From positions 62,001-126,000 of the forward strand of contig NZ_VWNC01000001.1 in NCBI RefSeq assembly GCF_013387455.1: a DNA stretch of 64,000 nt. Reading direction: 5' to 3'. Made by a program: the position numbers and the translations under genes. Source of the stretch: Mariprofundus sp. NF. GTDB lineage: Bacteria > Pseudomonadota > Zetaproteobacteria > Mariprofundales > Mariprofundaceae. A model generated the notes under the pieces. That model did no database searches. It was given only the letters and a program-made list of their open reading frames with translations, and was not told where the DNA came from. This document shows positions 4,989 through 11,088 of the stretch, piece by piece. Numbering within the stretch: position 1 is the stretch's first letter; every line of letters starts with the position of its first letter.

Positions 4989-6431
4989 TCATGTTGATCT
5001 CCTTAACAGTGGCTCAAGTAATTCGGGCTTGATCGCCTTCTCCATAGCATCGGCCAGCAGATCAAGCGAGGCAAGTGTGCGTTCTTGCTGATCTCTGCCG
5101 TCACCTGTTGTGTGGCCCATTTCGGCAAGCCACTGTTTACGAAACTCGCCCTGCTCGAAGAGTCCATGCACATATGTGCCCCACACCTGAGCATCTTCAG
5201 AGCAGGCCGCAAAGGGGAAGAGCGTCTCATCAGCATCCGACTCGCCATGGTGGATCTCATAACCGGTGACCCTGAAGTCAGCAAAGCGGGGGGCTGGTTG
5301 ATCCACCTGTTTCAGTGTTTTCGCGGCTCGCATGGTGGTTGAAAGCGGCAGCCATCCCAACCCCTCTGCACTGCCACCCTCAACACCGTCATCTTCAACG
5401 CGCTGCCCAAGCATCTGCATGCCACCACAGATACCGAGCAGTTTGCCGCCATAGCGCAGGTGGCGCTGCAGTGCAGGAACAAAGCCTTGATCTCGCAGCC
5501 ACTCCAGATCCGATGCGACATGTTTGGAGCCGGGCAGGATAATCAGGTCGGCAGGATTTAACTCATCAGGAGAACGGATAAAACGCAGGTGAATCTTCTC
5601 CTCCGAAGCCAGTGGATCGATGTCATCACTATTGGACATTCTGGGATAAGCGATGACGGCAATATGGATGGTGTCAGGAGTAAGGGGTAAGGCGTGAGGA
5701 GATAGCTCCTGCACATGGCGGAAAGGACTATCCTCTTCAGGTAGCTCAAGTGCAAGCCAGGGGATCACACCAGCAACCGGGCGCGCTGTTTTCTGCTCAA
5801 GCCAGATCAGTGCATCATCAAGCAGGGCAAGATTGCCGCGAAAGCGGTTGATCAGCAGCGCTTTGACGCGAGCATTTTCGGTTGCCGACAGGATACCGAG
5901 TGAGCCGGTAAGGGCGGCAAATACGCCACCGCAATCGATATCGCCGACCAGCCATACCGGCACATCAGCCGCCTCGGCAAAACCCATATTGGCAATATCA
6001 CCCTCGCGCAGGTTGGGCTCGGCAGGGGAGCCTGCCCCTTCAATAATTACCACGTCATACTGCTCCTGCAGCTGCGCGAAGGAGTCCAGCACCATCTGCA
6101 TCCAGCCGATACGATCCTCACGGAAACGTTTGGCATGCAGCTCTCCAACCACCTTGCCGCGCACGACCAGCTGTGCTTTCTCATCTGCTTCGGGTTTGAT
6201 CAATACCGGATTCATATGAACGGTAGGTTCGATGCCACAGGCGATGGCCTGCAGTGCCTGTGCGCGGCCGATCTCACCGCCATCAATGGTGACAGCCGCA
6301 TTGTTGCTCATGTTCTGAGGTTTGAACGGGGCGACAGAGACGCCGTTGCGGGCCAACAGTCTGCAGAGACCAGCCACCAGCACCGATTTACCGACACCGG
6401 AAGCTGTGCCCTGAATCATCAATGCGTTCAT
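4989..6431 (-). CDS. cobQ: Cobyric acid synthase
   Basis: Glutamine-dependent amidase of the corrin side chains, 480 residues from the ATG at 6431. The N-terminal synthetase domain opens with the P-loop GTASGVGKS (residues 8-16) and the C-terminal glutaminase domain has the nucleophile in LGICGGMQMLG (Cys335) and a VHGLFE histidine. The open frame runs up to 6485, but those codons come from the repeat element at 6449-6596. The ATG at 6431 has AAAAGG upstream and matches the usual family start. The interdomain linker (residues 244-253, SPHALPLTPD) is encoded by a 7-bp repeat array at 5673-5700 found elsewhere in the window. Confidence 0.95.
   Translation of the reverse strand: MNALMIQGTASGVGKSVLVAGLCRLLARNGVSVAPFKPQNMSNNAAVTIDGGEIGRAQALQAIACGIEPTVHMNPVLIKPEADEKAQLVVRGKVVGELHAKRFREDRIGWMQMVLDSFAQLQEQYDVVIIEGAGSPAEPNLREGDIANMGFAEAADVPVWLVGDIDCGGVFAALTGSLGILSATENARVKALLINRFRGNLALLDDALIWLEQKTARPVAGVIPWLALELPEEDSPFRHVQELSPHALPLTPDTIHIAVIAYPRMSNSDDIDPLASEEKIHLRFIRSPDELNPADLIILPGSKHVASDLEWLRDQGFVPALQRHLRYGGKLLGICGGMQMLGQRVEDDGVEGGSAEGLGWLPLSTTMRAAKTLKQVDQPAPRFADFRVTGYEIHHGESDADETLFPFAACSEDAQVWGTYVHGLFEQGEFRKQWLAEMGHTTGDGRDQQERTLASLDLLADAMEKAIKPELLEPLLRRST
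5673..5700. repeat. 7-bp GTRAGGN repeat array inside cobQ
   Basis: On the plus strand four consecutive 7-bp units follow the pattern GTNAGGN (GTCAGGA, GTAAGGG, GTAAGGC, GTGAGGA). Read on the cobQ strand they encode part of the linker between the synthetase and glutaminase domains. Similar arrays overlap the stop codons of leuC (36,808) and glmM (54,429). That the copies are related is inference from the shared unit and register. Confidence 0.7.
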
Positions 6432-6448
6432 AAACCAACCTTTTGGAA

Positions 6449-6596
6449 CCACGGATGGACGCAGATGAACACAGATGAAAGACAAAGGCTCTCCGGCAGT
6501 TCTGGTTTTGCAGAACTAATAACTTTGCCTGTGGAGCTCGTAGCGATATTACGTATATATCTGTGTTTATCCGTCTTCATCTGCGTCCATCTGTGG
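6449..6596. repeat. Inverted-repeat element between btuF and cobQ
   Basis: The outer 20 bases form a near-perfect inverted repeat: CCACGGATGGACGCAGATGA at 6449-6468 matches the reverse complement of 6577-6596 at 19 of 20 positions. A second block (AACACAGAT) follows in both arms with an 8-base offset. The core has no gene. The right arm encodes the last residues and stop codon of BtuF, and the left arm lies in the frame upstream of cobQ. Its ends resemble those of the elements at 31,690 and 43,142. Confidence 0.75.
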
Positions 6597-7398
6597 CTAA
6601 ATATTTTTGATTCTGAAGTGCGCCCTGCAATGCTTCCAGCCCATCGATCAGGCGCGGGCCGGGGCGGTGCAGTATATCCGGATCAATGGCTACAAAACGG
6701 ACCTTGCCGCCTCCTAACCACTTCTCCCAAAAAATTCTGCGCTCTGCAATGGATCGCTTCTCAATCGGAATAACGATCAACTCAGGTTTGGCTCGGATCA
6801 CTGACTCGATATTTACATGCGCTGTTTCGATATCGATACCGGCAAAGATATTTCTGCCTCCGGCCTCGTGGATCAGATCACTGATAAAACTGGGGCCTCC
6901 GGCAGTCAGTAGCGGGTCATGCCACACCTCATAAAAGACAGCTGTCTCAGAGCGCGGTCTACTGCGCACCTGCTGCAGGCGTTGACGCAGCTGAGCAACC
7001 AGTTTGCCTGCCTCGGCAGTGTGACGGGTCAACTCACCCAGCTTGAGCATGTCGTCAAACATGCTTTCAAAGCTGTCGGGATTGGAGACCACTGTCCGGA
7101 CTCCCATCTTCTCCAGCACCTCGATCCCCACAACATTGCGACTCATCACGATGGCCAGATCAGGTTTCAGGCGCAGTGCAGCCTCAACATTGATGCGCTC
7201 ATAACTGCCGATACGCGGTAGCTGTTTTGCCTCTGCAGGATAGTCGCAGTAGGAGACAGCTCCGACCAGTTGCGCTTGAGCACCAATGGCATAGATCATC
7301 TCACAGGCATGCGGAGTAAGTGCCAGAATGCGTTGCGCCATAGCCGTAGCGGGAAGCAGCAGGGCAGCCAATAGCAGGGGGAAAAGAAGACGTTTCAT
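6577..7398 (-). CDS. btuF: Periplasmic cobalamin-binding protein
   Basis: Substrate-binding protein of the B12 ABC importer, 273 residues, with a signal peptide (Lys-Arg then a leucine/alanine stretch, likely cleaved after ATAMA near residue 21). RILALTPHACEMIYAIGA and LPRIGSYERINVEAALRLKPDLAI are typical BtuF/FhuD-like (helical backbone) features. YEVWHDPLLTAGGPSFISDLI fits the second lobe. The final residues LATDGRR are encoded by the right arm of the repeat at 6449-6596, so the natural C-terminus was probably altered by that insertion. It overlaps the tonB-like gene by four bases. Confidence 0.92.
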   Translation of the reverse strand: MKRLLFPLLLAALLLPATAMAQRILALTPHACEMIYAIGAQAQLVGAVSYCDYPAEAKQLPRIGSYERINVEAALRLKPDLAIVMSRNVVGIEVLEKMGVRTVVSNPDSFESMFDDMLKLGELTRHTAEAGKLVAQLRQRLQQVRSRPRSETAVFYEVWHDPLLTAGGPSFISDLIHEAGGRNIFAGIDIETAHVNIESVIRAKPELIVIPIEKRSIAERRIFWEKWLGGGKVRFVAIDPDILHRPGPRLIDGLEALQGALQNQKYLATDGRR

Positions 7399-8039
7399 TG
7401 CAGTTTAAACTCAACGGGAAGGCGATAGGTGCCATTGGCCAGCGGTAGGTGATCGATGGCCCGGATGCCACGCATGGCAGCACGATCAAGCAGGCTGTGG
7501 CCGGATGAGAGTGAGAGATCCAGCCGTGCCAGTTTCTGCTCATGTACGGCAAGGTTAAACATGGCGTTGCCCTGCCACCCTTTGCGGCGTGCCTTACGGG
7601 GATAACTGATGTGGGAGAGGATCATCTGCTGCACGTCAGACGGCATGCTGGCACCAGTAACGGCATGACTTTCAGGCTCAACTACAACTGTAGTTTTTAC
7701 AACTTCCGGAGACTGTTTCAACGCCTGTGGGGTCGTTTTTTGCGGACGCTCGGGCAGCGGTGATTCGGCCAACTCCTTTATCTCTTTATGCACGATTGGT
7801 GCAACTGCAGGGGTGATCTGTTTTGTCTGCTTTTGAGGTGCAGCTGCTTTTGCCTGCGGTGTTGCGGTCTGCTCGGGACTCTCTGCTTTTTTGACCAGTT
7901 CGACCTGCAGGGTGGCACCCTCGTCAGCTTGAATGTGTAGCGTGTCGTTTTGAGCCAACAGCTGAAAAGCGAGCATATGCAGGCCAGCGGCAGCTACAAA
8001 AGCAGCTGCCAGCCGACCGGATCGATGCAGGTTGATCAG
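7395..8039 (-). CDS. TonB-like energy transducer, non-ATG start likely
   Basis: TonB-family protein: hydrophobic N-terminal anchor, a long Pro/Lys/Gln-rich periplasmic spacer, and a C-terminal TonB domain beginning near ISYPRKARRKGWQG and ending VEFKLQ. It would couple the proton-motive force to the adjacent BtuB. The first ATG in frame (7976, 193 residues) cuts the anchor in half. The open frame continues upstream with LINLHRSGRLAAAFVAAAGLH, completing a membrane helix, to a CTG at 8039 that overlaps the btuB stop as CTGA. I give the longer form (214 residues) as more likely; the exact start is uncertain. Confidence 0.82.
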   Translation of the reverse strand: MINLHRSGRLAAAFVAAAGLHMLAFQLLAQNDTLHIQADEGATLQVELVKKAESPEQTATPQAKAAAPQKQTKQITPAVAPIVHKEIKELAESPLPERPQKTTPQALKQSPEVVKTTVVVEPESHAVTGASMPSDVQQMILSHISYPRKARRKGWQGNAMFNLAVHEQKLARLDLSLSSGHSLLDRAAMRGIRAIDHLPLANGTYRLPVEFKLQ

Positions 8040-9901
8040 AAGGTTGCTCCCAGACCTGCGTACCAGACGCGTCCGACCACACCGTAACCGGCCGCCTCCT
8101 CATACTTCTTATCTTCGACGTTGTTTACCCGTGCTGTCAGCTCCCATGTCTCATTGACATGCAAGCGGGCACGCAGGTCCGTTTTACGGTAACTGGCCAG
8201 GTAGGCGGCATTGTTCGGGCTGGAGAAGCGTGGCCCGACAATGGCCAGATTGCCCTCCAGATTAAGCGGGCCGATATCAATGCCGAGCAGAATATTGCCA
8301 CTCTCTTTGGGGCGACGGGCCAGCCAGGTCTCGTTAGAGGAGTCCCTCGCCATCAGATAACTCCAGTTAGCCTGCAGATAGGCCCCGGAATAACTCACTC
8401 TGCCGCTGATCTCCAGACCGCGGCTGCGCGCTTTGTTCACATTCGATGGAATCCATGTGAATGATCCGGGGGTGATCGGGGCCCAGGCGATCAGATCGCG
8501 AAATGATTGATCAAACCATGTGGCACTTAAACCGCCCTGCAGCTGATCACTGCTGTAATCATAAGCGATGCCTGCATCCCAGCCCTTGCTGGTTTCGGGT
8601 TTCAGGTTGGCATTGCCCACGGCCGGCCAGTAGAGATCATTGATGGAGGGGGCCTTGAAACCGGTACCGTAGTTCCCCGAAATTTTCAGGCCGGTAAGCG
8701 GATGCAACACTGCACCTGTATGCCAGGTGGATTTGTTGGCCGAGTTGATCAGGCCGCTATTGCGGTCGTGGCGCAGTGAGCCGTTGAGATCAAGCAGCTC
8801 ACTATGCCATGAGAGGGCTGCGAATCCCGCACTCTGCTTTAACACCTTGTTAAGCGGAGCCAGCGGATTGACGGCGCGATCAGCATGATAATCCAGCCCG
8901 AAGAGCAGAGAGAAGTCGGCCAACTCAATATGGTTCTGCCAGTTCAGCTGTTTGATGGTGGTGTGGATGTCGGAGTTGTTGGCTGCATTGGCGGGATCAT
9001 AACCGGTCATATCATCAGCTGAGCGGGAGAGTTGCAGGCTACTCTCCCAGCTGTCCATGATCGGATAGCTCACTTTAAGGCTGTAGATAGACTGTCTTGA
9101 TGATGCGCTCCAGTTCAGTGTGTCTGCCAGTACCCAGCCGCCATCCAGACTGTTTTTGCCCTCTGACTGGCGGGCGGTAAAAGAGATCGTGCCGTCACCA
9201 AGCTCCATCTCGATACGACCGGAGATCTGGCTCTGTCGATAGGGGTCGGTTTCTGTACCTGCGGCCGCAACTGAGACACCATCGGTACGCTGGCCTGCTG
9301 CCGTCAGTGCATAGCTAACACCATTTTCGGTTGATCCTGACACCTGCATGCTGCCGCTGGATGAGGCCAATCCGCCAGCTTCGCCCTGAATGCGGACTTT
9401 GGTTTTACCTTCACCTGTTTTGGTGAAAATCTGAATGACGCCACTCATGGCATCAGCACCGTAGAGTGATGATTGTGGGCCTCGCACGATCTCAATGCGC
9501 TCAATATCTTCCGGTGACATCAGCCCCCAGTCGAATGCACCGGTTGAGGCTGCACCAACGCGCACGCCATCAATCAGCACCAGCACATGGCCACTATTAC
9601 CGCCACGCATATAGAGTGAGGTTGATTTGCCGGGACCACCTGTTGTCGATGTGTTGATACCCGCCTGACGACGCAGCAGTTCGACTACCGTGGTTGCCTG
9701 TGCCTTTTTGATCTCCTCTTCATCAATGATAGTGACATCTGCCGAGATTCTGGCTGGATCCTCTGCAATTCGACCGGCTGTAACGACCACAGTTGGTAGC
9801 GCCTCTTCGGCCTGCAGTGGAGTCGATGCAGCTAACCCTGCCGCCATAAGAAGCATCGATGTGATGATTGTTGTTCGTCTGTTTGTGGGCTGAATAGCCA
9901 T
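8036..9901 (-). CDS. btuB: TonB-dependent vitamin B12 receptor
   Basis: Outer-membrane gated barrel, 621 residues. There is a signal peptide (about residues 1-31), a TonB box LPTVVVTA at 35-42, a plug domain (RRQAGINTSTTGGPGKSTSLYMRGG, then VLIDGVRVG, then RGPQSSLYGADAMSGVIQIFTK, given here in parts) and a beta-barrel ending in the aromatic residue F. AGGAAGAAGAG directly before the ATG supplies the ribosome binding site. It is the first gene after the cobalamin riboswitch and length matches BtuB (about 600). Confidence 0.95.
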   Translation of the reverse strand: MAIQPTNRRTTIITSMLLMAAGLAASTPLQAEEALPTVVVTAGRIAEDPARISADVTIIDEEEIKKAQATTVVELLRRQAGINTSTTGGPGKSTSLYMRGGNSGHVLVLIDGVRVGAASTGAFDWGLMSPEDIERIEIVRGPQSSLYGADAMSGVIQIFTKTGEGKTKVRIQGEAGGLASSSGSMQVSGSTENGVSYALTAAGQRTDGVSVAAAGTETDPYRQSQISGRIEMELGDGTISFTARQSEGKNSLDGGWVLADTLNWSASSRQSIYSLKVSYPIMDSWESSLQLSRSADDMTGYDPANAANNSDIHTTIKQLNWQNHIELADFSLLFGLDYHADRAVNPLAPLNKVLKQSAGFAALSWHSELLDLNGSLRHDRNSGLINSANKSTWHTGAVLHPLTGLKISGNYGTGFKAPSINDLYWPAVGNANLKPETSKGWDAGIAYDYSSDQLQGGLSATWFDQSFRDLIAWAPITPGSFTWIPSNVNKARSRGLEISGRVSYSGAYLQANWSYLMARDSSNETWLARRPKESGNILLGIDIGPLNLEGNLAIVGPRFSSPNNAAYLASYRKTDLRARLHVNETWELTARVNNVEDKKYEEAAGYGVVGRVWYAGLGATF

Positions 9902-10017: not shown

Positions 10018-10073
10018 AGGCCTCAAACCGATGACAGCCTTCATAAAGAATGGTCTGTCGTGCTTGAGGCCGG
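10018..10073 (-). promoter_or_regulatory. Possible riboswitch expression-platform hairpin
   Basis: On the transcript strand, GGCCTCAA at the very end of the B12 box can pair with TTGAGGCC about 35 bases later, and an inner GACAG/CTGTC pair extends the stem. Because one strand of the stem includes the end of the B12 box, it could form only when the aptamer does not. No U-tract follows, so control of translation or a later structure is more likely than termination. Inference from pairing only. Confidence 0.5.
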
Positions 10074-10272
10074 TCTCCTGGCTTGCCGTCATCCGCGGCT
10101 ATTCTCCTTCCCGGTCTCCCAGTGGATTCGAACAGCGTTGTCAGGCCTACAGTAGCGGGGGCTGCGCCGGAATTGGTAGATAGCAATCCACACTCAGCAT
10201 GAGTTTGCATTGCTATCGAATCCGCACCGGACTTCCCGTTTCACCCGTGGTCGAACGACCATTTGGGCACCT
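10066..10272 (-). ncRNA. Cobalamin (B12) riboswitch
   Basis: On the minus strand the conserved order is complete: an opening GGTGCCC, GGTGAAACGGGAAG and CCGGTGC, CGCAGCCCCCGCTACTGTA, CCACTGGGAGACCGGGAAG, and finally the B12 box GACGGCAAGCCAGGAGACC ending in GGCC. Spacing and order match the cobalamin aptamer. It lies about 165 bases upstream of btuB and should repress the whole B12 operon when adenosylcobalamin is plentiful. Confidence 0.96.
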
Positions 10273-10679
10273 AAAGCGGTGTGAACACTATCTCCACAGG
10301 GAAGCTGCGTCTATTCAGCTGTCGAAGGGGGGGCTTAAGGCTTTTGGAACTATGCTGAATGACTGCTCCCTGCCAAATCAGGACGGACGGAAAGGGTTAG
10401 TTAAATATCAATCGAGTTTGACCCTATTGATTATTACCGATGCTCCCGGCCAAAAGCATCGGTCATTCGTTTGAGCCCTTCATGGGGAGCCGGTTTATCA
10501 AAGCTGCCGAGGAATATCCCCAAAACAAGACCTGAGCCTCCGAGTATGTTGAGTACGCGTGTTTTATGTGTAAGGTGAAGAGGTAACAAAGCGCGTAGAC
10601 AAAGGGGAGCCTCATGCAGGATGACGTACATAATTTGCCAAAACCAACAAGAGTCAGCGAAAATGAAGAGGAATAAATA
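10273..10679. other. Intergenic stretch upstream of the riboswitch
   Basis: It holds the candidate promoter above and a perfect 8-bp inverted repeat (CCGATGCT at 10437-10444, AGCATCGG at 10455-10462) without a following T-run. A 20-codon plus-strand reading frame with a good GGGGAG site runs 10614-10676 and ends just before the small peptide gene at 10680; it may be a leader or chance. A minus-strand frame at 10434-10631 contains one hydrophobic patch but no convincing gene signals. Confidence 0.5.
10349..10376 (-). promoter_or_regulatory. Candidate sigma70 promoter of the B12 operon
   Basis: TTGGCA (reverse of 10371-10376) and CATAGT (reverse of 10349-10354) are 16 bases apart on the minus strand, placing a transcript start about 70 bases before the riboswitch. 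The -10 match is modest, so this is a weak call. Confidence 0.3.
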
Positions 10680-10859
10680 ATGATCCTAAAAGACACCCGT
10701 GTGACCCATTCATTCAATCAAAATGAGCCCGACAGGCTTAGAAAACAATGGCGCACACCAACTATCACAAAACTACCACACAATAATACAGATGGTGGCA
10801 AAGGCGCTTTCTTCACAGAAACAGCAGTAGGATCATCTAAATCCATCGGCCCGAGTTAA
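10680..10859 (+). CDS. Candidate lasso-peptide (RiPP) precursor
   Basis: A 59-residue product with AGAGGA eight bases before the ATG. The C-terminal half has the lay-out of lasso precursors: an aromatic-x-x-Pro-x-Ile leader motif (W24, P27, I29, L32), a threonine at 37 that would be position -2, then a core starting at Gly39 with GGKGAFFTE, so Glu47 is core position 9, the usual macrolactam acceptor. The spacing from the aromatic residue to Thr (13) equals that I recall for paeninodin-type leaders. The core would be residues 39-59. No cyclase, protease or RRE gene lies beside it, so it would be an orphan maturated in trans, or a chance resemblance. Its codon use is more AT-rich than its neighbours. 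Confidence 0.5.
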   Translation: MILKDTRVTHSFNQNEPDRLRKQWRTPTITKLPHNNTDGGKGAFFTETAVGSSKSIGPS

Positions 10860-11032
10860 TAATATTTAGTACCATAAACTCAGCAGACCGTGGAACTAAG
10901 GTATCAGAGCACACGAATCCGACACTACTGTATGAATGGGTAATCTCACCCCCAGCTCTCCTGCCATAAGCCAACGAAATCAGTTCTGGATATATTTTCC
11001 AATTCGGGATGAGTCCGCACCTTATTCATAGA

Positions 11033-11066
11033 TCCGAATGTCCGATTTTGGCGGCGGTCATTCGGA
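11033..11066. repeat. Hairpin repeat after the Sel1 gene
   Basis: TCCGAATG (11033-11040) and CATTCGGA (11059-11066) form a perfect 8-bp inverted repeat 23 bases downstream of the Sel1-protein stop. It lacks a U-tract. A related CCGAATGACCGG block occurs at about 41,245. The remaining 10860-11088 shows no gene apart from short stop-broken frames. Confidence 0.5.
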
Positions 11067-11088
11067 ATTAAACGCTGAGTTTAGTGAT

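Follow-up and report, generated by a model that had tools for sequence, protein, structure and literature searches.

The window analysed here, a stretch of 64,000 nucleotides from Mariprofundus sp. NF, carries a small gene of 59 codons which the initial annotation had read as the precursor of a lasso peptide with no maturation genes next to it. Translation returned the product as described (W24-R-T-P27-T-I29-T-K-L32, T37, G39 and E47), ending in GPS, and the AGAGGA ribosome-binding site was located upstream of the start codon (Table 1). The leader follows the pattern [YW]xxPx[IL]xx[L] and carries its -2 threonine 10 residues past Pro27, while the core opens with Gly39, one of the residues (Gly, Ala, Ser or Cys) accepted at this point, and has Glu47 at position 9, within the range of 7 to 9 allowed for the acceptor Asp or Glu. 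As a threaded macrolactam, 18 Da below the linear core, the 21-residue core would have a predicted monoisotopic mass of 1965.98. Six-frame translation of the window gives 1,088 open stretches of 30-120 codons, and this gene alone among them matches a strict pattern ([WY]xxPx[ILV]xx[LIVM] followed by T-x-[GA] and by an acid near core position 7-9), for which 0.03 matches are expected per Markov-shuffled window. Taken alone, the motif pattern is suggestive and amounts to modest evidence for a lasso precursor; the assignment is settled because there is a paralogue in the same genome and there are homologues inside lasso clusters. The precursor matched no NCBIfam or Pfam model, a single-sequence scan of the genome contigs returned no relative, no similar DNA was found in phages and plasmids, and promoter and terminator scans gave nothing clearly over shuffle expectation.

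Table 1. Features of the precursor locus and of related loci (window coordinates unless a locus is named)
Feature	Position	Strand	Basis or remark
59-codon lasso precursor ORF	10680..10859	+	translation, homologues, alignment
Leader, 38 aa	10680-10793	+	W24xxPxIxxL32 (predicted RRE-binding motif), Thr37 at -2
Predicted core GGKGAFFTETAVGSSKSIGPS, 21 aa	10794-10856	+	predicted ring Gly1-Glu9, C-terminal Ser
Ribosome-binding site AGAGGA	10667..10672	+	sequence
20-codon mini-ORF MQDDVHNLPKPTRVSENEEE	10614..10676	+	DNA homology to leader N-terminus of other precursors
Conserved upstream block (5' region and likely decayed leader)	10460..10677	+	common to other dispersed copies
Extra segment, ~770 bp (766 bp), between btuB riboswitch and Sel1-repeat gene	10323..11088	.	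comparison with congeners
Hairpin-like (REP-like) repeats GGTCATTCG / CGGTCATTCG	10437-10475 and 11036-11075		near both ends of the extra segment
Cobalamin riboswitch	10051-10289	-	Rfam, 93.7 bits (cutoff 31.5)
TonB-dependent receptor gene, BtuB type	8036-9901	-	downstream of the riboswitch
KV cluster precursors	L102: 4966-5133 and 5600-5767	-	directly beside cyclase
KV third, degenerate precursor copy NSSGTEGKFFKTATESHTSVSGKEASYGPS	L102: 8967-9077	-	open frame of just 37 residues
Idiomarina sp. precursor TEGKDYSFTSET...GPS	L126: 11827-11982		1.4 kb downstream of B2 gene
G028 tandem precursors	L103: 11282-11685	-	ending VGS
M. ferrooxydans PV-1 partly deleted cluster	L108: ~5700-7900		B1 and B2 left, ABC gene truncated
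Reverse-transcriptase genes, group II intron type (G009, G016)	L104 / L106: 1-2700		at lasso cluster edge

An extra segment and its dispersed relatives

From the btuB riboswitch to the Sel1-repeat gene the host has ~770 bp, compared with 62 bp in Mariprofundus sp. KV, ~60 bp in the congener G011 and ~100 bp in G007. Because the congeners have only ~60-100 bp at this place, the segment is probably an insertion which carries the precursor. One of its borders is the end of the Cobalamin riboswitch, which precedes the BtuB-type receptor gene; this riboswitch was the only neighbouring Rfam match, and Rfam found nothing in the conserved 5' block. Hairpin-like repeats lie near both ends of the segment, and sequences similar to the CGGTCATTCG type occur in a few other intergenic regions; they are at most a candidate mobility signal.

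The gene shares with other dispersed copies a conserved upstream unit of ~220 bp of DNA, which is 75% identical to the region on contig C10 of the same genome and 77% and 69% identical to those on contigs C94 and C23 of G009, a genome of another species of the genus. The C10 and C23 copies are alike beyond the stop codon too. RNAalifold of four 5' regions revealed little covariation, and we therefore claim no structured RNA. Within this block, the 20-codon mini-ORF ends 3 nt ahead of the 59-codon ORF and, judged by its DNA homology to other leaders, is likely the decayed, frameshifted leader of a first copy. The C10 copy, flanked by dnaB and an SDR gene, occupies ~550 bp to which nothing in KV corresponds, the DNA at that place in KV being different. 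The C94 copy is truncated close to an element, and the end of this element is repeated in inverted orientation at the end of another contig.

A precursor family and its conserved residues

A whole-genome search revealed the paralogue on C10 (54 aa, MQDEATQPDKKQQEPAKLKWQKPQINNLNNEATHGGKGFVYPTESFFGPASGPS), which is 40% identical to the window gene. The two-sequence profile built from this pair identified a homologue in G009 (E 7.5e-7), and a further G009 homologue was reached via the common upstream DNA; this genome has precursor-like genes on C5, C23 and C94. A motif scan of lasso-like clusters of relatives added two more precursors in locus L102 of KV. Run against 78 genomes of the class, the family profile gives E-values of 1e-19 to 1e-23 in the host, G009, KV and G016; these values show consistency more than discovery because these members are largely part of the profile searched with; the pairwise and two-sequence searches and the cluster context are independent of it.

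An alignment of eight members shows no variation at Pro27, Leu32, Thr37, Glu47 and the C-terminal Gly-Pro-Ser; position 24 is occupied by Trp or Tyr and position 39 by Gly or Ala. The three residues which the initial annotation had named for a check of conservation (Thr37, Gly39 and Glu47) are thus conserved, Gly39 with this one substitution. The Pro-to-Thr spacing is 10 in seven of the eight, and the 13-residue spacing which the initial annotation compared with paeninodin-type leaders is likewise kept, from Trp to Thr, in 7/8 full-length members compared; it is countable too in a Mesobacillus precursor at a locus with a B2 gene. Counted from the residue two past Thr, the core acid stands at position 9 in six of eight members, at 10 in the C10 paralogue if its core starts directly after T-x, and at 8 in the G009 C23 homologue, whose core begins with Ala. 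The tandem precursors of G028, in which TEAGSGKK or TEAASGKK replaces T-x-GK, lie beside a kinase-bearing lasso cluster and are a divergent branch of the family.

Lasso clusters in relatives and the empty site in the host

Mariprofundus sp. KV, one of the related iron-oxidising bacteria, has a complete split-B lasso cluster: besides B1, B2 and the cyclase, its locus encodes an ABC exporter, a kinase of HprK-like type, a sulfotransferase and a CxxCxxCC protein, and it contains a nucleotidyltransferase-like gene that is broken into two parts. NCBIfam models recognise B2 (lasso_biosyn_B2, 90 bits, cutoff 33) and B1 (lasso_PqqD_Bac, 96 bits, cutoff 80), and the best match of the cyclase is lass_lactam_cya at 286 bits, under the curated cutoff of 525. 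The two precursors beside this cyclase share with the window gene the W-x-x-P-x-[ILM]-x-x-L leader, Thr at -2, Gly1, a Lys near the start, T-E at core positions 8-9 and the GPS end. Unlike the window gene, they belong to a full cluster with enzymes, have cores of 25 rather than 21 residues and are without the upstream DNA block of the dispersed copies. A third copy in the same locus is degenerate (Table 1). The Idiomarina precursor shows the same T-E-G-K...S-E9-T...GPS design as the window gene, but in a gammaproteobacterial host and with enzymes adjacent. The search for homologues beside lasso genes in related strains, which the initial annotation had proposed, has found them adjoining B1/B2 and cyclase genes in KV and close to B2 in Idiomarina, and the KV pair, in an NCBIfam-recognised lasso cluster, upholds the reading of the window gene as a lasso precursor.

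HprK-like kinases were found in the clusters of KV, G009 and G016. Paeninodin (PadeA, B1/B2/C/D/K) and pseudomycoidin are alike in their split B1/B2, HprK-type kinase and conserved C-terminal Ser, and in the nucleotidyltransferase and sulfotransferase genes of related clusters; they differ in being Firmicute systems with the precursor gene inside the cluster, and their cores are not related to that of the window gene at the level tested. The C-terminal Ser is the phosphorylation target of the lasso kinase and is extremely conserved where the kinase is present (PMC9266682), and nucleotidyltransferase and sulfotransferase genes have been reported in kinase-bearing lasso clusters (PMC8498205). 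Ser59 is present in the window precursor and conserved in the family, and no kinase gene was found in the host genome; a Ser at this end is in keeping with the paeninodin-type clusters that bear a kinase.

In M. ferrooxydans PV-1 the lasso cluster is partly deleted: its site has no cyclase, and the genome yielded no precursor. In PV-1, and apparently in G009 too, the neighbourhood of the cluster is that of lon and pgm, a different place from KV, and the cluster therefore changes position over evolution. Reverse-transcriptase genes stand at the cluster edge in G009 and G016, and the G016 B2 gene contains an in-frame TAG.

The genome-wide hunt for a cyclase, a protease and an RRE protein, which had also been suggested at the outset, covered the host assembly of 2.53 Mb (24 contigs, 99.78% complete by markers) and found no B1, B2, lasso cyclase or kinase. 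Transglut_core3, PqqD and the HprK-like lasso kinase had no match in the host genome, and neither had a B2 alignment which does match PV-1, G009, KV, G016 and G028; the same kinds of enzyme search were positive in congeners. The host's one full Asn_synthase protein (C7, 682 aa, 414 bits) was rejected as a lasso cyclase, given its polysaccharide-type surroundings and its apparent resemblance to an ordinary amidotransferase. KV and the host are collinear up to the cluster at 84-88% DNA identity. In KV, a wecA-like gene is followed by ~16.5 kb of lasso genes and then by fcl and gmd, whereas in the host the wecA-like gene and fcl are 38 bp apart and the cluster site is cleanly empty. The lack of maturation enzymes in the same genome bears on function in the host strain and not on descent.

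Origin and fate of the orphan precursor

The window gene is a genuine lasso precursor by descent and an orphan by genome content. The initial annotation had left open whether it is served by enzymes encoded elsewhere, a remnant or a new small-peptide family: the best fit is an orphan that lacks its machinery, the rest of the genome yielded no enzymes, and the gene does not represent a new peptide class. It had also named a genome free of lasso machinery, together with a lack of conservation, as the outcome that would speak against a lasso precursor; machinery was indeed not found, but conservation is strong. We consider it probable that the ORF is a split-B, kinase-associated (paeninodin-like) precursor gene which arrived as a small unit without enzymes and now encodes a stranded, unprocessed substrate. 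In relatives with enzymes, B1, a PqqD-like RRE protein, would bind the W/Y-x-x-P-x-I-x-x-L leader, B2 would cut after the residue following Thr37, the cyclase would join the amine of core Gly1 to the side chain of Glu9, the HprK-like kinase would phosphorylate the C-terminal Ser, and the ABC protein would export the product. The gene presumably entered the host genome as upstream region plus ORF; since such a unit would have come without enzymes, any translation of the ORF would probably yield an unprocessed peptide, and a precursor that stays unprocessed in the host is the simplest reading we can infer.

Two other histories appear less likely. According to the first, which we regard as improbable, a former cluster was lost and its leftover precursors are functionless and drifting. 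The partly deleted cluster of PV-1, devoid of a detectable precursor, the degenerate third precursor of KV and the frameshifted first leader copy in the window are all in line with such decay, but both host precursors are intact and lie where KV has no counterpart, and are therefore not what a deleted cluster left behind at its site. Moreover, leader dN/dS between two dispersed copies is ~0.45; conservation looks higher at leader than at core sites, a difference that is not significant (Fisher p 0.26) and involves numbers too small to prove selection. The second, in which a dispersed but working precursor is matured in trans by enzymes whose genes lie on a plasmid or in DNA missing from the assembly, seems quite improbable to us, more so than the first. 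The division of the host assembly into 24 contigs leaves a small chance of a missed cluster or of one on a lost plasmid. The intact ORF with its good ribosome-binding site next to a decayed leader copy would agree with maturation in trans, and in G009 the enzymes are on C58 and C97, away from the three contigs with precursor-like genes, so that a single genome can indeed hold its precursors and its enzymes on different contigs; against this stand the 99.8% completeness of the host by markers with none of the four enzymes found, and the clean absence of lasso genes from the site of the KV cluster. That the ORF arose by chance, or encodes some unrelated small protein with no more than a resemblance to lasso precursors, is very improbable: the peptides are short, with weak statistics, the motif has the low but finite expectation given above and no curated family matches, but the family profile links members across genomes, some of them inside lasso clusters, and these cluster-linked homologues already contradict it.

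The unusual point is the spreading of precursor genes apart from their enzymes; the gene itself joins a known peptide class. Tentatively, and with considerable doubt, one may suppose that the precursor genes of Mariprofundus travel from site to site and from strain to strain as independent ~0.4-0.8 kb units, each bringing along its upstream region, and that any strain holding a cluster matures their products in trans, in which case substrate and enzyme repertoires would evolve separately. Genome mining for lasso peptides generally looks beside enzyme genes. Since the precursors described here lie far from any cluster, in one genome without a cluster found, searches of enzyme neighbourhoods would miss such genes. 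Among the papers searched, we found none mentioning lasso peptides together with Mariprofundus or Zetaproteobacteria, and therefore the clusters in KV and its relatives may also be undescribed. Furthermore, the orphan precursors are ready-made alternative substrates for testing the permissiveness of one lasso enzyme set.
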